From assembly GCA_007695195.1 (NCBI GenBank), contig REEG01000131.1, positions 1-35,322 on the forward strand: a DNA stretch of 35,322 nt, written 5' to 3'. Shown one piece after another: positions 2,173 to 26,163 of the stretch (position 1 is the stretch's first letter; every line of letters begins with the position of its first letter). The notes beneath the pieces were generated by a model. It was not told the DNA's origin and made no database searches. It worked only from the letters and a program-made list of their open reading frames with translations. This DNA comes from Gemmatimonadales bacterium. Its GTDB lineage: Bacteria > Gemmatimonadota > Gemmatimonadetes > Longimicrobiales > Gaopeijiaceae. Made by a program: the position numbers and the translations under genes.

Positions 2173-5100
2173 TCAGAAGCGGATCCGGATCCCAAGTTGG
2201 GCCTGCCAGCGCGAGGCCACCGAGTCCAGGGTGTACGGCGAGAGGGGACGAACCTCCCCCTGGGCGTCCCGTTCCACCGGCCCCACGAAGGCCATCCCGT
2301 GACGGGGAGGGCCCCCCACCTGCTCCGGTGGGAACTCGATGAAGCCCAGGATGGGGAGTTGGGCCTCCACATCCTCGATCCGCCCCCAACTGTCCCGCAC
2401 CATGTTGAGGGCGTTCAGGAGATCGGCCGAGACCTCGACCCGCCCGATCCGGCTATCCCAACCCCGGACGGCCTTCAGGTCGAGCTGGTTGGTCCAGGGC
2501 CCGCGGCAGGCCCCCCGCTCGAGAATGGCTCCCCTGGACTCCTGCAGGCAGCCCTCGCCGGCGATGAAGCGAGAGAACACCGCCCGGGTGACCGGGGTGG
2601 TCCGGGGGGTTTCGGTGGCGGATGTCCCGGCCGGCACGTAGATCAGATCGTTGTAGCTCTCCCGCCCCAGCCCCGCCCCGGAGAACCCGTCTCCATTGGC
2701 GTCTCCTTCGTACACGAAGGAGAAGGGCCGTCCCGACAGACCCCGGTAGCGGACCCCCACCTCCGTCGCCCCCCACCGGTCGGCCACGGCGGCGGTGAGG
2801 TTTACCGTGAGCGTATGGGGCCGCACGAAGGGCGACGGTCGACGCTGCGGGTCATTGGGTTCCACCGCAATGGGGTTTCGGCCGAAGCTGGAAATGGCGT
2901 CGGCCGCCGTCAACGTCTGGAGCGCCAGCCCTTGAGCGTACCGGTAGCCCACCTCGAAGCGGGACGAAGCACCCATGGGCCCGCGCACCTCGGCCATGAG
3001 GGAGAGGGTGCGGTCCCGATCCTGGTTCGCCACCTCCACCACCGGCCCGAACTCGGACGCCCTCCGGTTCAAGCCCGTGAACACCTCGCCGTAGCGGACT
3101 CGGGATCCCAGCCCCTCCAGCGGCTGTCCGTCCCCCGGCTCGACCCACGGTTCCGGCAGGTTCAGGTCCCGCACGAAGAGCTGGTTCAGACTTCGGGAGA
3201 AGAGGCCTTCCAGCGTCACGGTCAGATCGCCGGGAAGCTCCCGGTCCAGCGACAGGACTCCCTTCACATCCCGCGGGGGGGAGAGATCCGGCGCCATGAC
3301 CTGGATGGAGGGCGGAAGGACCGTCCGACCGAACACCTCGCTCACACAGTCGCGGGGCGCCGGTTCATTGGGACGCAGGGGCGGCGCGACCCGGATGTTC
3401 ACCCGGGGATCCTGCTGACAGAGGAGGTGGTGCCGCCGTGTTCCTGTGTAGGCGTAGCTGCCGGCGATCCACTCGAAGGGGATGCGCCCCTGGAAGACCC
3501 CCACCCCGCCGGAGATCTGAGTGAGCCCTCCGGCCACGTCCCCCCGCCAGTTGACGCCGATGCGGGGGGACACAGTGAGGGACTCGGGAAGGCGGGTGTT
3601 GTCGACCCCCAGCGTCTCCACCAGGAGTGGGTTGGGGTCCACGGCGCGGGGGAAGGTGGTGCGGTCCAGCCGCACGCCAAACCGGACGGTGAGATCCGGT
3701 CTGGGGGTCCATTCGTTCTCTCCGTAGAGACTCCATTCCCGCACCGGGAATCGCTCCACCCCGTCGCCGAGACCCTCCGCCGAGGTCATGATCTCGTAGG
3801 TGAAGGGCGTGTTGCCGCGAAGGTCCCAGAGATTGTCGAAGTCATAGCGCCCCAGCGAACCCGGAAGGTTGAGGTGGCGCACCTCGAAGTGCCGGAAGGC
3901 GCCCCCGAACGCCAGATGATGGGCGCCCAGCGACCGGGACACCTCGTTCCGGACCTCCACCAGATCCTGGGCCAGTTCCAGAGCATGGGCCGAGGATTCA
4001 CCGCCCATCCGCACTGTCCGGTTCAGGAAGAGATCCCCTTCCGTCCCCCAGATGCGTACATCCACCTGGGGGAGGGGCGAGGCGGGGTGGGCCGACTCCC
4101 GATTCCCCTGGTGCTGCACACTGAACTGATTCCCCCACCCGCTCCGGCTCCTGAGGGAGAGTTCGGCTCCCGTGAGGAGGGAACTCCGACTCCACCGGGT
4201 CCCGGCCGACGAGAAGCCGTACGGACCCAGGGGCCCGCGATTGGGCGAGAGGTCCTCCTCGGACCAGGCGCCCATATGACGGATGGTGAGGGTGCGGTTC
4301 TCAGACCAGTGGTGATCGAGGCGGGCGAAGGTGTTCCCCATGCGGGTGGTGAGGGTGTGGCTCCGGGCGGTTCCGGGATCGGCACCGAACACCTCGCCCA
4401 GAAGACGCCCCGCTTCGGCCACCGAATCGGGGATCAGCCGCAGACGTCCCACCTCTCCCTCGCCCAGGTTCAGACCCAGGGGCGGGCGTCGCTCCTCTTC
4501 GAACTCGCCGGCCACGAAGAGGTGGGTCCGGTCCAGTCGAAGGGGCCCTCCCGCCGAGAATCCCGCCAGGGCCTTCCGGAAGTCCGGGGTGTTCACCGAG
4601 ATGCCGTCCACATCCAACGGACCCAGGAGCCACTCGTGGCGCCCCATGGCGAAGACGTTGGATTCCCACGTATTGGTGCCGGCCCGGGTCACAGCCTGGA
4701 GAAGCCCTCCCTGGAAGCCCGACTCCCGCACATCGAAGGGACTCGCCGCCACCCGGAACTGCGCCACCGCCTCCAGAGGGAGGAGCTTCCGCCGCGCTTC
4801 CGGAAGATCTCCCCGGGGAAAGCCCGAGTTGTCCTGCAGGAGAAGCCCGTCCAGTTGGAAGGCGTTCAGCCGGTCGTTCTGTCCGGCCACGGAAACACGA
4901 CCCCCCTCCCGGTGCACCAGGGGAGATCGTTCGGCCAACTCGAGGATATCCCGCCCCAGCGTCGGGTGAAGGGCGATGGCCTCCTCGTCGGAGATGTGGG
5001 CCACACCCATTCGACCCACGGAGATCCCCAGCCCGGGCCGGGCCTGAACCTCCACCCCCTCAACCTCCAACACCGCCGTCCGCATCTCCACGTCGACGCG

Positions 5101-22790: not shown

Positions 22791-22812
22791 CGTGGCGGAC
22801 GGACTCTGACGT
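22775..22812 (+). repeat. Perfect 19-bp tandem duplication across a stop/start junction
   Basis: The unit GGCGGACGGACTCTGACGT occurs twice back to back (22775-22793 and 22794-22812). The first copy contains the TGA of the peptidase gene. The second places an identical TGA just before the GTG of the flavoprotein gene. With one copy removed, the stop and the GTG would be one base apart, so a recent slippage duplication is likely to have separated them. Confidence 0.9.
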
Positions 22813-24073
22813 GGAAGGTGTACCTCAGGACATCCTGGTGGTGGGGGCGGGGGCCGCCGGCCTCATGGCGGCCATCTTCGCCGGTCGGGCCGCCCCCGCC
22901 GCCAGGATCCTGGTGGTGGAACGAAGCCGGGATGGGGGCCGGAAGATCCTCATCAGCGGCGGAGGCCGGTGCAACGTCCTTCCGTCCCGTCTGGACCCGG
23001 CCCACTACGTCACCGCCTCGTCGCCCAATACCCTCCGGAAGCTCCTGCTCTCGTGGCCCCTCCCTGAGCAGCGGGCGTTCTTTGAGGAGGACTTGGGCAT
23101 TCCCCTTGCGCTGGAGGCCGAGACCGGGAAGCTCTTTCCGGTTTCGAACCGGGCCCGGGATGTGCGCGACGCCCTGGTGGACGCCGCACGGAGAGCCGGC
23201 GCCCGGTTCCTCTTCCAGCGCTCCGTGGAAGGACTGGAGGCGGTGGAAGGGGGTTGGCACGTCACCCTGGACGGGGGTGAGTCGGTCCAGGCCCGGCGGG
23301 TGATCCTGGCCAGCGGGGGACTCTCCGTTCCCGCCACCGGGAGCGACGGAACGGGACTTCGCCTGGTGGAGTCGCTGGGCCACACCCTCCACCCCACCTA
23401 TCCGGCCCTGACTCCCCTCCTGGCCGACCCACCGGTACACGGGCACCTGGCCGGTGTCTCCCTTCCCGTTACCCTCCACGTGCCCGGTGTGCGGGGGCGG
23501 GCCGGCGAGGGACGTCCTGAGGCGGAGGGTGGGTTCCTGTTCACCCATCGTGGCTACTCGGGGCCCGCCGTCCTCAACGTCTCCCACTTCGCGGTGCAGG
23601 CCCGGGACCGGAACACGGAGCAGCCTGTGACGGTGGCGTGGACCGGAGAAGACGCATCGGTCTGGGACACCCGGCTGCAGGAAGAGGGCTCAGGCCCCGT
23701 CACCGCCCTCCTCCGTCGTCATCTTCCGCAGCGGCTGGCCGACCACCTCATGGCCGAGGCCGGAGTCCCCCTGGACCGGTCCCTGGCGCGCCTTCGACGG
23801 GATGAACGCCTGCGCCTGGTGGAGGCCCTCTCGGCCCTTCCCCTCCCCTGGACCGGCGACGAGGGGTACAAGAAGGCCGAGGTCACGGGGGGCGGTGTGG
23901 CCCTCTCCGAGGTGAACCCCCGGACCATGGAGAGCCGTCTGTGCCCGGGCCTCCACCTCTGCGGGGAGATCCTGGACGCCTTCGGCCCCATCGGGGGGTA
24001 CAACTTCGCCTGGGCGTGGGCTACGGGCCGGGCGGCCGGACGGAGCGCAGGCACCACTGCGGCAGTCGACTAG
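22811..24073 (+). CDS. HI0933/BaiN-family NAD(P)/FAD-dependent oxidoreductase
   Basis: A 420-aa cytoplasmic flavoprotein. The N-terminal FAD-binding motif is VVGAGAAG (residues 10-17), followed by GGRKILISGGGRCN (42-55), the signature of this family. Further motifs include FPVSNRARDV, RRVILASGGLSVPATGSDG, and the C-terminal LHLCGEILDAFGPIGGYNFAWAWATG that closes the FAD site. The start is GTG 22811, because the Rossmann motif begins only a few residues later; the ribosome-binding site is poor, so coupling to the upstream peptidase is likely. The true substrate of most members is unknown; the BaiN bile-acid role should not be assumed. The TAG stop touches the left 67-bp repeat. Confidence 0.88.
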   Translation: MEGVPQDILVVGAGAAGLMAAIFAGRAAPAARILVVERSRDGGRKILISGGGRCNVLPSRLDPAHYVTASSPNTLRKLLLSWPLPEQRAFFEEDLGIPLALEAETGKLFPVSNRARDVRDALVDAARRAGARFLFQRSVEGLEAVEGGWHVTLDGGESVQARRVILASGGLSVPATGSDGTGLRLVESLGHTLHPTYPALTPLLADPPVHGHLAGVSLPVTLHVPGVRGRAGEGRPEAEGGFLFTHRGYSGPAVLNVSHFAVQARDRNTEQPVTVAWTGEDASVWDTRLQEEGSGPVTALLRRHLPQRLADHLMAEAGVPLDRSLARLRRDERLRLVEALSALPLPWTGDEGYKKAEVTGGGVALSEVNPRTMESRLCPGLHLCGEILDAFGPIGGYNFAWAWATGRAAGRSAGTTAAVD

Positions 24074-24138
24074 CTCGCCGACCTCCAGCCGCCTACTCCC
24101 GCTCGTCCCAGGGCGGTGTGGGGAAGCGAGGGTCGGCG
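24072..24138. repeat. Left copy of a 67-bp direct repeat flanking vapBC
   Basis: This copy matches 24880-24946 with only 2 mismatches in 67 bases, at an offset of 808 bp. The right copy is the last coding part and stop of the LivK-like gene. Read on the minus strand this copy encodes the same ending, PRFPTPPWDERE and stop, with Asp for Ala and an upstream Asp for Glu. It starts within the flavoprotein stop codon and ends 4 bases before the vapC stop. Confidence 0.92.
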
Positions 24139-24142
24139 AGGA

Positions 24143-24541
24143 TCAGGATCCCAACAACCGCACGTTGGAAATCCCTGCCGCTCGCCGATCCAGTGTCACC
24201 AGTTCCGATGCACCGGCACGTTCAGCGGCCTTGGCGATCATCACATCCGCAAAGCCTAGCCCCTCCTCCCGGTATCGTTGTGCGGCTCGTCCAATATCCT
24301 CTGCAGCTTCTACCCTTATCTCCGGTGCAGCCAGAAGTCCTTCCACCGCCTGCGCTATGGCGGAACGATCCCTCTTGTAGGCTCGCTCCAGAACCCAGAC
24401 CAGTTCGACCATCACTTCGCGGCAGATGAACCCTGGATTTTTCTCGGAAAGGCTCGAGATGAGCGCGTTGGCCAGAGCCGTCTGAGCCTCGTCGTCCTCA
24501 GTGAGGAAGCGAACCAGGATATTCGTATCAAGAGCGATCAT
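24143..24541 (-). CDS. vapC: VapC-type PIN-domain toxin (RNase)
   Basis: Toxin of a type II toxin-antitoxin pair. PIN-domain proteins cut RNA using a metal held by acidic residues. The 132-aa product shows the expected set: Asp5 (MIALDTNILV), Glu46 (REVMVELVWVLE), Asp99 (GLGFADVMIAK) and Asp118 (LVTLDRRA). The start ATG 24541 overlaps the stop of the antitoxin gene as ATGA, giving tight coupling. Base composition is lower in GC than its neighbours (36/60 at 24301-24360 and 35/60 at 24421-24480, against 46/60 at 24001-24060), which suggests acquisition by transfer. The cellular RNA target cannot be read from sequence. Confidence 0.9.
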   Translation of the reverse strand: MIALDTNILVRFLTEDDEAQTALANALISSLSEKNPGFICREVMVELVWVLERAYKRDRSAIAQAVEGLLAAPEIRVEAAEDIGRAAQRYREEGLGFADVMIAKAAERAGASELVTLDRRAAGISNVRLLGS

Positions 24542-24789
24542 GGCTCGATGACGCACCCCTCCGCAGCCCCTTCGGCGATGGCTGTATCCATCTCTTCCAA
24601 ATTCACGGGCGTGGAATGGGCCTCGGAAAGGATCCCGGCGAGAGAAACGACCGGTCGGACCTTCAGAAGACGAACTTCTCCATCCAGGACGAAATACCGA
24701 ACCCGGTCGCCAGACCGAAGGTCCAGCGCAGTGCGCACATCCTTGGGGATCGTCGTTTGCCCCTTGGCCGTGACTGTGGACTCCTGCAC
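24538..24789 (-). CDS. vapB: AbrB/SpoVT-type antitoxin of the vapBC module
   Basis: An 83-aa antitoxin that should bind and neutralise VapC and repress its own promoter. The N-terminal half is an AbrB-type swapped-hairpin DNA-binding domain (STVTAKGQTTIPKDVRTALDL, RSGDRVRYFVLDGEVRLLKV). The C-terminal tail (LEEMDTAIAEGAAEGCV) is the likely toxin-binding part. The start is GTG 24789, with AAGGAG at good spacing. The TGA overlaps the vapC ATG by 4 bp. Three GTAAGG boxes at 20-bp steps lie directly upstream and are a plausible operator. Confidence 0.88.
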   Translation of the reverse strand: MQESTVTAKGQTTIPKDVRTALDLRSGDRVRYFVLDGEVRLLKVRPVVSLAGILSEAHSTPVNLEEMDTAIAEGAAEGCVIEP

Positions 24790-24796
24790 AGATACT

Positions 24797-24842
24797 CCTT
24801 ACAAAATGAAATCTTTCCTTACTATAACCCCACACCCCTTAC
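24797..24842 (-). promoter_or_regulatory. Three GTAAGG direct repeats at 20-bp period before vapB
   Basis: On the plus strand CCTTAC occurs at 24797-24802, 24817-24822 and 24837-24842, an exact 20-bp period. On the minus strand these read GTAAGG, and the one nearest vapB forms part of its ribosome-binding site (GTAAGGAG). The spacers are AT-rich and include TATAGT, a possible -10. Autorepression by the AbrB-type antitoxin bound to these boxes is inferred from the layout. Confidence 0.5.
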
Positions 24843-24848
24843 CCCGGA

Positions 24849-24865
24849 ACCCATTCGAGATGGGT
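24849..24865. other. Small perfect hairpin between the vapB operator and the right repeat
   Basis: ACCCAT and ATGGGT pair perfectly around a 5-base loop (TCGAG). It is positioned 36 bp beyond the livK-like stop on the minus strand, upstream of the GTAAGG boxes. It lacks a T-run, so it is at best a weak transcript-end or operator element. Confidence 0.25.
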
Positions 24866-24879
24866 GCCGCTGGTGCCGA

Positions 24880-24946
24880 AGCTCGCCGACCTCCAGCCGC
24901 CTACTCCCGCTCGGCCCAGGGCGGTGTGGGGAAGCGAGGCTCGGCG
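24880..24946. repeat. Right copy of the 67-bp direct repeat flanking vapBC
   Basis: This copy spans the last 14 codons and stop of the LivK-like gene, plus 21 bp beyond the stop. It matches 24072-24138 with 2 mismatches. Together the copies bound an 808-bp repeat-to-repeat unit holding vapBC and its control region. Confidence 0.92.
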
Positions 24947-26163
24947 GTGGCCAGGTCCGTGGGCCACACCACCGCCTTCTCGCCATCCTGCCACTGGATG
25001 GTCACCCCCTGATTGGCGATCTGGTACCCTCGCTCATCCACGGCGAAGGGCCCGAAGACGGTGGTGGTCTCCAACCCCAGGAGGGTGTCGCGCACCGCCG
25101 TATCGTCCAGCGTCCCGGCTCCTTCCACCGCCAGGGCCAGGAGGCGGCAACTGGCATAGGCGCCGGCGGCATGGAAGCTGGGCATCCGGCCGAACGCCTC
25201 CCGGTACGCCTCGGTGAATTCGGTGATGCCCGGGTGGGGAAGGCTCGGCTCCCAGGCCGACAGCCCGTACACGAACTCGGCGTCGGGCCCCAGCGCCTCC
25301 TGGAACTCCACCACCGCCCCGGACGTCCCGAACATCTCCACATCAATTCCCGCGGCCTTCATCTGGCGGGTCACGGTGATGAAGTCACCCAGCGCCGACG
25401 CCGCCATGGCCAGCACCTGGGTGCCCTCGGCCGCCATCCGCTCCAGGATCGGTCCGAAGTCCTCGGTGCCGCTGGGGTAGGTCTCGTCCAACACCACCGT
25501 CATCCCCCGCTCCCGGGCCCGCTCCGCCGCGCCGGCTCCGGCCGCCCGGGGGAAGAGCTGATCCTCCTGGAGTACGGCCACGCGCTCGAGTCCCGCCTCG
25601 GCCCCGAGCTCCACCAGCCCCGCCAGGAAGAGCTCAGCCGGCGGCAGGACCATGAAGAGGTACTCCCGCCCCTGCTCCCAGATGGAGGAAGTCGCCGCCA
25701 GGGGTGAGATGTGCACCCGCCCATGGCGCTCCGTCACAGGTGCCACCGCCTCGGTGAGGGTGGACCCGTAGGGCCCCAGGATCAGGTCCACACCCTCCTC
25801 GGTGATGAGCTGCTCATAGAGCTCCGGAGCCCGCTCCGAGTCCGAGCCGTCGTCGTGGATCCGGAATTCCACCCGCCGTCCCAGGAGGCCGCCCTCGGCA
25901 TTGAGGTGCTCGCCGCAGAGGAGATAGCCGTCCCGAGCCGGGATCCCCTGGGTGGCGTACGCCCCGCTCTCGGACATGGTGGCCCCGATGACGATAGGAT
26001 CATCCTGGTCCGGAGCGATCCGGGCCGGAACCTCGGCTTCGGGAGGCAGGGGCTCGGCGCCGGGATCCGGCGCGTCCGCCTCCCCGCAGGCAACGACGAA
26101 GAGAACCGGAAGGGCAAGGATGCCCCGAACAAGCCATCGTGAAGAAGAAGACAGGGAGGCCAT
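24901..26163 (-). CDS. LivK-type periplasmic substrate-binding lipoprotein (Peripla_BP_6)
   Basis: Ligand-binding component of a branched-chain amino acid-type ABC system, or a stand-alone sensor. The 420-aa product starts at ATG 26163 with signal peptide and lipobox VVAC near residue 26. A Pro/Glu-rich linker follows, then the type I periplasmic-binding fold: IVIGATMSESGAYATQG, GGLLGRRVEFRIHDDGSD, VDLILGPYGSTLTEAVAPV, VAVLQEDQLFPRAAGAGA and YGLSAWEPSLPHPGITEFTEAY. No permease or ATPase gene is adjacent, so it is an orphan here. An ATG at 26211 would overlap the upstream gene and push the signal away from the N-terminus. The last codons are duplicated beyond vapBC. Confidence 0.88.
   Translation of the reverse strand: MASLSSSSRWLVRGILALPVLFVVACGEADAPDPGAEPLPPEAEVPARIAPDQDDPIVIGATMSESGAYATQGIPARDGYLLCGEHLNAEGGLLGRRVEFRIHDDGSDSERAPELYEQLITEEGVDLILGPYGSTLTEAVAPVTERHGRVHISPLAATSSIWEQGREYLFMVLPPAELFLAGLVELGAEAGLERVAVLQEDQLFPRAAGAGAAERARERGMTVVLDETYPSGTEDFGPILERMAAEGTQVLAMAASALGDFITVTRQMKAAGIDVEMFGTSGAVVEFQEALGPDAEFVYGLSAWEPSLPHPGITEFTEAYREAFGRMPSFHAAGAYASCRLLALAVEGAGTLDDTAVRDTLLGLETTTVFGPFAVDERGYQIANQGVTIQWQDGEKAVVWPTDLATAEPRFPTPPWAERE

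Follow-up and report, generated by a model that had tools for sequence, protein, structure and literature searches.

The window analysed here, that is, the whole stretch of 35,322 nt, belongs to contig REEG01000131.1 of assembly GCA_007695195.1, from a Gemmatimonadales bacterium of the Gaopeijiaceae. The source genome is metagenome-derived (3.92 Mb, 306 contigs), and its relatives are Gemmatimonadota, many of them represented by soda-lake metagenome-assembled genomes. As indicated in Table 1, a vapBC operon lies in this window between two convergent genes, one for a flavoprotein and the other for a livK-like substrate-binding protein, and the operon is bounded on either side by one copy of a 67-bp direct repeat. 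The reading frames of both neighbouring genes are intact around the insert. The livK-like protein is 70–73% identical to its relatives within the genus, and we also observed 65–73% identity with proteins from soda-lake genomes labelled Gemmatimonadota, Balneolaceae, Wenzhouxiangella and Idiomarina; since the identity across unrelated phyla is about that found within the genus, horizontal spread of this gene is suggested. Tyrosine recombinases are present elsewhere in the source genome. One of them, on contig C80 (L197:1015-2355), has 446 aa, including a long extension at the N-terminus; it scores under the integron-integrase cut-off and has similar matches in same-genus genomes.

Table 1. Features of the vapBC locus (positions of the window; a dot marks features given no strand).
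Feature	Positions	Strand	Evidence or remark
HI0933/TIGR00275-family flavoprotein, left neighbour	22811..24073	+	PF03486 3.6e-65, TIGR00275 7.3e-100
Left repeat copy, 67-bp target site, probably duplicated	24072..24138	.	65/67 to 24880-24946
Insert, 741 bp, consisting of the vapBC operon with its upstream region	24139..24879	.	Absent from the orthologous G001 junction
vapC, PIN-domain toxin, 132 aa	24143..24541	-	PF01850 9.9e-17
vapB, AbrB/MazE/PrlF-type antitoxin, 83 aa, GTG start	24538..24789	-	PF04014 4.8e-9, PF15937 3.6e-8, TIGR01439 1e-10
Candidate vapB operator/promoter	24790..24845	-	CCTTAC repeats
Right repeat copy: final 46 nt of livK, stop included, and 21 nt past this stop	24880..24946	.	
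livK-like periplasmic substrate-binding protein, right neighbour, intact	24901..26163	-	PF13458 4.1e-63

The vapB and vapC genes overlap by 4 nt, and an alignment of relatives showed that residues D5, E46, D99 and D118 of VapC are invariant. With a PIN-domain toxin carrying these acidic residues and a small, overlapping, DNA-binding antitoxin encoded upstream of it, the pair is, judging from its sequence, a VapBC type II toxin-antitoxin module, with toxicity and neutralisation as its predicted activities. The right repeat copy lies 90 nt upstream of vapB. Within this interval the motif CCTTAC (GTAAGG on the coding strand) occurs at positions 24798, 24818 and 24837, about 20 bp apart, and comparable CTTAC/GTAAGG motifs precede vapB in relatives; this region is likely to function as the vapB operator/promoter. 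The GC content between the repeat copies, described as low in an earlier note on this DNA, was indeed 0.582 for the insert against 0.677 for the window, a value below that of all 346 stretches of 741 bp sampled from the window. Since the insert has the lowest GC content in the window and the nearest known VapC relatives are just 53–58% identical, it looks foreign. A profile search for integrases, transposases and recombinases gave no match in the insert or the window, in agreement with the earlier note. VapC had no match in a phage collection and a single relative in viral contigs, and carriage by a phage was rejected on these grounds. No match to VapC was found among solved structures.

The match of 65 out of 67 bases between the two sides of vapBC, on which the earlier note was built, was confirmed both by alignment and by a genome search. 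The copies are in direct orientation with a spacing of 808 bp, the longest exact word that they have in common is 34 bp, and they differ at 24106 (T in the left copy, G in the right) and 24132 (G left, C right); these two mismatches mean that the insertion event is not brand-new or that copying was imperfect. When the left copy was searched against the whole 3.92-Mb genome, it retrieved itself (E 8.6e-34), the right copy (E 2.9e-26) and then a match of just 22 bp, with no third copy in the genome. The repeat is thus neither a chance match nor a dispersed repeat, and a REP-type reading was likewise ruled out because the genome holds two copies only. No other long direct repeats within 6 kb were found in the window.

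Read on the forward strand, the repeat begins with the AG of the flavoprotein TAG stop (24071-24073), continues with a 19-nt spacer (24074-24092) and the livK stop, the complement of which (CTA) stands at 24093-24095 in the left copy and at 24901-24903 in the right copy, and ends with 43 more coding bases. It had been taken for the 3' end of the livK-like gene; this holds for the livK stop and last codons, but the repeat also includes two bases of the flavoprotein stop and the 19-nt spacer; it thus spans all of the junction at which the two convergent genes meet. Similarly, the left copy does occupy the gap between the flavoprotein and vapC stops, except that its AG overlaps the former and that the latter (24143-24145) stands 4 nt past it. 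The flavoprotein stop next to the left copy is intact, the livK C-terminus encoded in the right copy is that of relatives (RFPTPxW.ER), and damage is apparent in neither flank. By direct reading, the ends of the left copy form a 10-bp perfect inverted repeat (CTCGCCGACC/GGTCGGCGAG). The RNA fold of the left copy was better than that of shuffled sequences (z -2.84), that of the right copy was not (z -0.55), and the DNA folds were unremarkable. Given the RNA fold of the right copy and the ordinary DNA folds, we rejected the idea that the repeat exists to serve as a functional hairpin or terminator.

A comparison with close relatives, proposed in the earlier note, led to a junction that is empty. 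In G001, a genome of the same genus, the flavoprotein (70% identity) and livK (73%) genes are convergent and separated by a spacer of 84 nt, against 19 nt in the window; no vapBC was found in the G001 genome at E 1e-8, and no repeat was found at its flavoprotein-livK junction. This gene pair without vapBC or repeat supports the reading of vapBC as a newcomer, but G001 is diverged (about 70–74% identical) and the exact ancestral 67-bp site is for that reason not visible base by base. When one copy and the 741-bp insert were removed from the window, a normal junction was restored, with TAG-CTCGCCGACCTCCAGCCGC-CTA present once. In a shuffling test, the end of the G001 spacer nearer to the flavoprotein gene resembled the 19 nt that the window has after its flavoprotein stop (CGCCG-CCTCCAG, p 0.004), and the livK-proximal end gave p 0.09; both outer flanks therefore look native. 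The simplest history is that of one site, one insertion and a duplication of the site.

We thus consider it likely that the 741-bp vapBC operon was inserted into the 67-bp junction of the two convergent genes and that the site was duplicated in the process, that is, an insertion with long target duplication. As in insertions of this type, the flanking repeat is of the order of 100 bp (67 bp, 65/67) and the unit contains neither transposase nor integrase; the usual, though not defining, cargo of restriction-modification genes is absent, and the cargo is VapB and VapC. The starting point would have been a staggered chromosomal break, the cut in one strand lying about 67 nt from that in the other, or else a repair that included a short switch of template; a fragment with vapBC would have been captured and joined in, and gap filling would have made the second copy of the 67 bp. 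No integrase of its own would be required for vapBC to enter. Because livK and the flavoprotein gene survive, the insertion appears nearly harmless. If the two copies recombined, exactly the empty site would be regained, and such a precise excision should be possible. Selection may nevertheless keep the insert, since its loss between the copies would remove the antitoxin of an addictive module; excision would be counter-selected only if vapBC is addictive.

A search for similar vapBC units gave one parallel. In L203, a locus of genome G071 from another family of the phylum, a vapBC operon whose VapC is 35% identical to that of the window lies between direct repeats of 68 bp (94% identity, positions 1255-1322 and 2209-2276). 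The earlier note had looked to units bounded by gene 3' ends, but the L203 repeat is the 5' end, including the start codon, of a GNAT acetyltransferase gene; one copy is within the intact GNAT gene and the other is about 20 bp past the stop of the upstream gene. If one copy and the insert are removed, the upstream stop falls about 20 bp before the GNAT start, where a start would be expected. No empty site for L203 was found in 79 other genomes. We surveyed vapBC loci for flush repeats, meaning direct repeats scoring at least 40, neither copy lying more than 250 bp from the operon, and used 442 stretches of the same geometry as controls. Such repeats were present at 2 of the 43 vapBC loci (the window and L203) and at none of the controls (Fisher p 0.008). 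Without the window, which had been chosen for its repeat, the counts were 1/42 against 0/442 (p 0.087), and regardless of repeat position they were 3/43 against 6/442 (p 0.037). These counts are suggestive of a recurrent process behind flush repeats at vapBC but are not proof of it; the L203 case hints that toxin-antitoxin genes can spread by target-duplicating insertion without a transposon.

A variant of this explanation, unlikely in our estimation, is that vapBC came to lie beside livK in a single repair event, in which the replicating end switched template, copied 67 nt of the livK end and then joined the flavoprotein side; a longer spacer, comparable with that of G001, would have been lost in exchange. 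Microhomology at each end of the left copy (AG; CGCCGA) would fit such a switch, as would the longer G001 spacer and the RNA fold of the left copy compared with that of the right. In addition, the bases at 24132, 24139 and 24140 differ from the right copy and all three complete the 10-bp inverted repeat, as in quasipalindrome correction. Three changed bases are weak evidence, however, and the resemblance of the left flank to the flavoprotein-proximal G001 spacer is better accounted for by simple duplication of a native site.

Site-specific integration, in which an attP carrying the livK 3' end would have recombined with livK by means of an integrase encoded elsewhere or since lost, leaving a CIME-like remnant, appeared very unlikely. 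The gene end is rebuilt, as had been pointed out earlier and as the intact livK frame attests; the flanking identity blocks are of a length usual for att sites, and the tyrosine recombinases of the source genome could be invoked. Yet the 741 bp hold vapBC alone and the window offers no integrase. Only one of 70 livK-relative loci has a tyrosine recombinase, which does not adjoin livK, and the L203 site, being the 5' end of an unrelated gene, means that no target is shared. The att-like event considered in the earlier note is thus not sustained, and neither is its second reading, a tandem livK duplication with one body then replaced by vapBC, the left copy being the remnant of the second livK. 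Although this course would lead to the same final order, and livK-type arrays do exist among distant paralogues (G030 and G026, 34–38% identity), it is highly improbable: two precise events would be required, identity stops abruptly at 67 bp, and the closest livK relatives are single-copy, tandem arrays being found only among the 34–38% paralogues. An artefact of assembly or strain mixing might come to mind for so fragmented a metagenome-derived genome, whose relatives are mostly soda-lake metagenome-assembled genomes; it is extremely unlikely, since the copies differ at 2 of 67 positions with no exact word beyond 34 bp, their flanks differ, the insert is a complete operon and the same arrangement recurs in an independent genome (L203). 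Insertion of an IS or transposon was rejected because the duplication measures 67 bp rather than 2–15 bp and no inverted-repeat pair stands at the insert ends, which agrees with the earlier remark that this is no ordinary transposon footprint. An integron gene cassette was rejected because the genome has no TIGR02249 match over the cut-off; no attC boxes (RYYYAAC/GTTRRRY) were seen on reading the sequence from 24072 to 24147.

Insertion with long target duplication has precedents. According to reviews (PMC3874152, citing Nobusato 2000 and Furuta 2010; see also PMC1643837 and PMC3031569), the insertion of some restriction-modification systems, otherwise unlinked to mobile elements, is accompanied by target duplications that are long (of the order of 100 bp) and variable. 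As in those insertions, an addiction-type unit without transposase lies here between direct repeats on the 100-bp scale, probably copies of the target, and a relative has the junction without the insert; unlike them, the cargo is a type II toxin-antitoxin pair, the host belongs to the Gemmatimonadota and not to Helicobacter, and G001 stands in for the empty site without representing the exact pre-insertion sequence. The route was called unusual in the earlier note; this applies to the toxin-antitoxin cargo but not to the type of insertion, already described for restriction-modification genes (PMC3874152, PMC1643837). In an incomplete coverage of the literature, no paper came up that explicitly describes long target duplication at the insertion of a type II toxin-antitoxin operon. 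In Microcystis aeruginosa PCC 7806, a ParDE-like module lies between 152-bp direct repeats (PMC7935541), and there too a toxin-antitoxin pair has a long direct repeat on either side, with an inverted repeat inside it. The Microcystis repeats are intergenic, identical and start 14 bp past a stop codon, whereas the vapBC repeats carry coding gene ends and have a known empty site; the ParDE-like pair, not analysed as such in PMC7935541, may be another example of target duplication. CIME-type elements, with attL and attR and no integrase, resemble the vapBC locus in having gene-end direct repeats that rebuild the gene; they differ in that no related integrase-bearing element is found at this site, that the insert is only 741 bp and that the second case, L203, uses a different gene and its 5' end. 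Insertion with a copied landing site would be one route by which chromosomal toxin-antitoxin modules travel without a nearby mobile element. The locus thereby links toxin-antitoxin modules to an insertion type of restriction-modification genes. Small toxin-antitoxin operons might even constitute a mobile class devoid of transposase which, like restriction-modification genes, enters chromosomes at gene ends and duplicates about 70 bp of the target, perhaps through staggered breaks kept by addictiveness; we advance this generalisation tentatively and regard it as rather doubtful.

Related vapBC operons also occur elsewhere. In one related genus vapBC is present in ten genomes (the L160 copy is truncated) as a block of about 690 bp, 83–91% identical, with the operator at one end and the vapC stop at the other. 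The block has the same location in four genomes, and in the others its flanks are unrelated, mostly without a flush repeat. In G029, the one related insertion for which good empty sites exist (three of them), vapBC took the place of a 54–66-bp spacer that separates a tRNA-Gln gene from the stop of another gene, with no duplication. Target duplication is therefore not a rule for this vapBC family, and we discarded it as such, given this replaced spacer and the many blocks without flush repeats. Altogether, related vapBC operons move to new places often, with target duplication as only one of several results. Near the G029 operon, a REP-like element of about 60 bp (L158:3452-3510) lies 60–120 bp past vapC and adjoins the tRNA-Gln gene; dozens of copies of it are present in the genomes of this genus.

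At L154, vapBC lies between repeats of 114 bp and 89% identity (2193-2306 and 3503-3616, equivalent to L140:693-806 and 2003-2116), the left copy of which is the 3' end of a small ORF resembling a Phd-type antitoxin, without a Pfam match. We set this locus aside as a further case because blocks of 200–370 bp recur there in shuffled order in many genomes of the genus. In the same genus, L236, L237 and L238 are mosaics in which small gene pairs and repeated blocks abound, and no integron integrase over the cut-off was found in the tested genomes of this genus. PrlF/AbrB-VapC modules are also found on alphaproteobacterial plasmids (for example NZ_CP121117.1), with a VapC 58% identical to that of the window. 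These modules belong to the same families and have the same gene order as vapBC here; unlike it, they had no flush long repeats (0/14 loci tested). On a Pseudosulfitobacter plasmid (L252:2272-4128), the PrlF-VapC pair overlaps a DNA repair exonuclease gene, which is followed by a YhaN-like gene.
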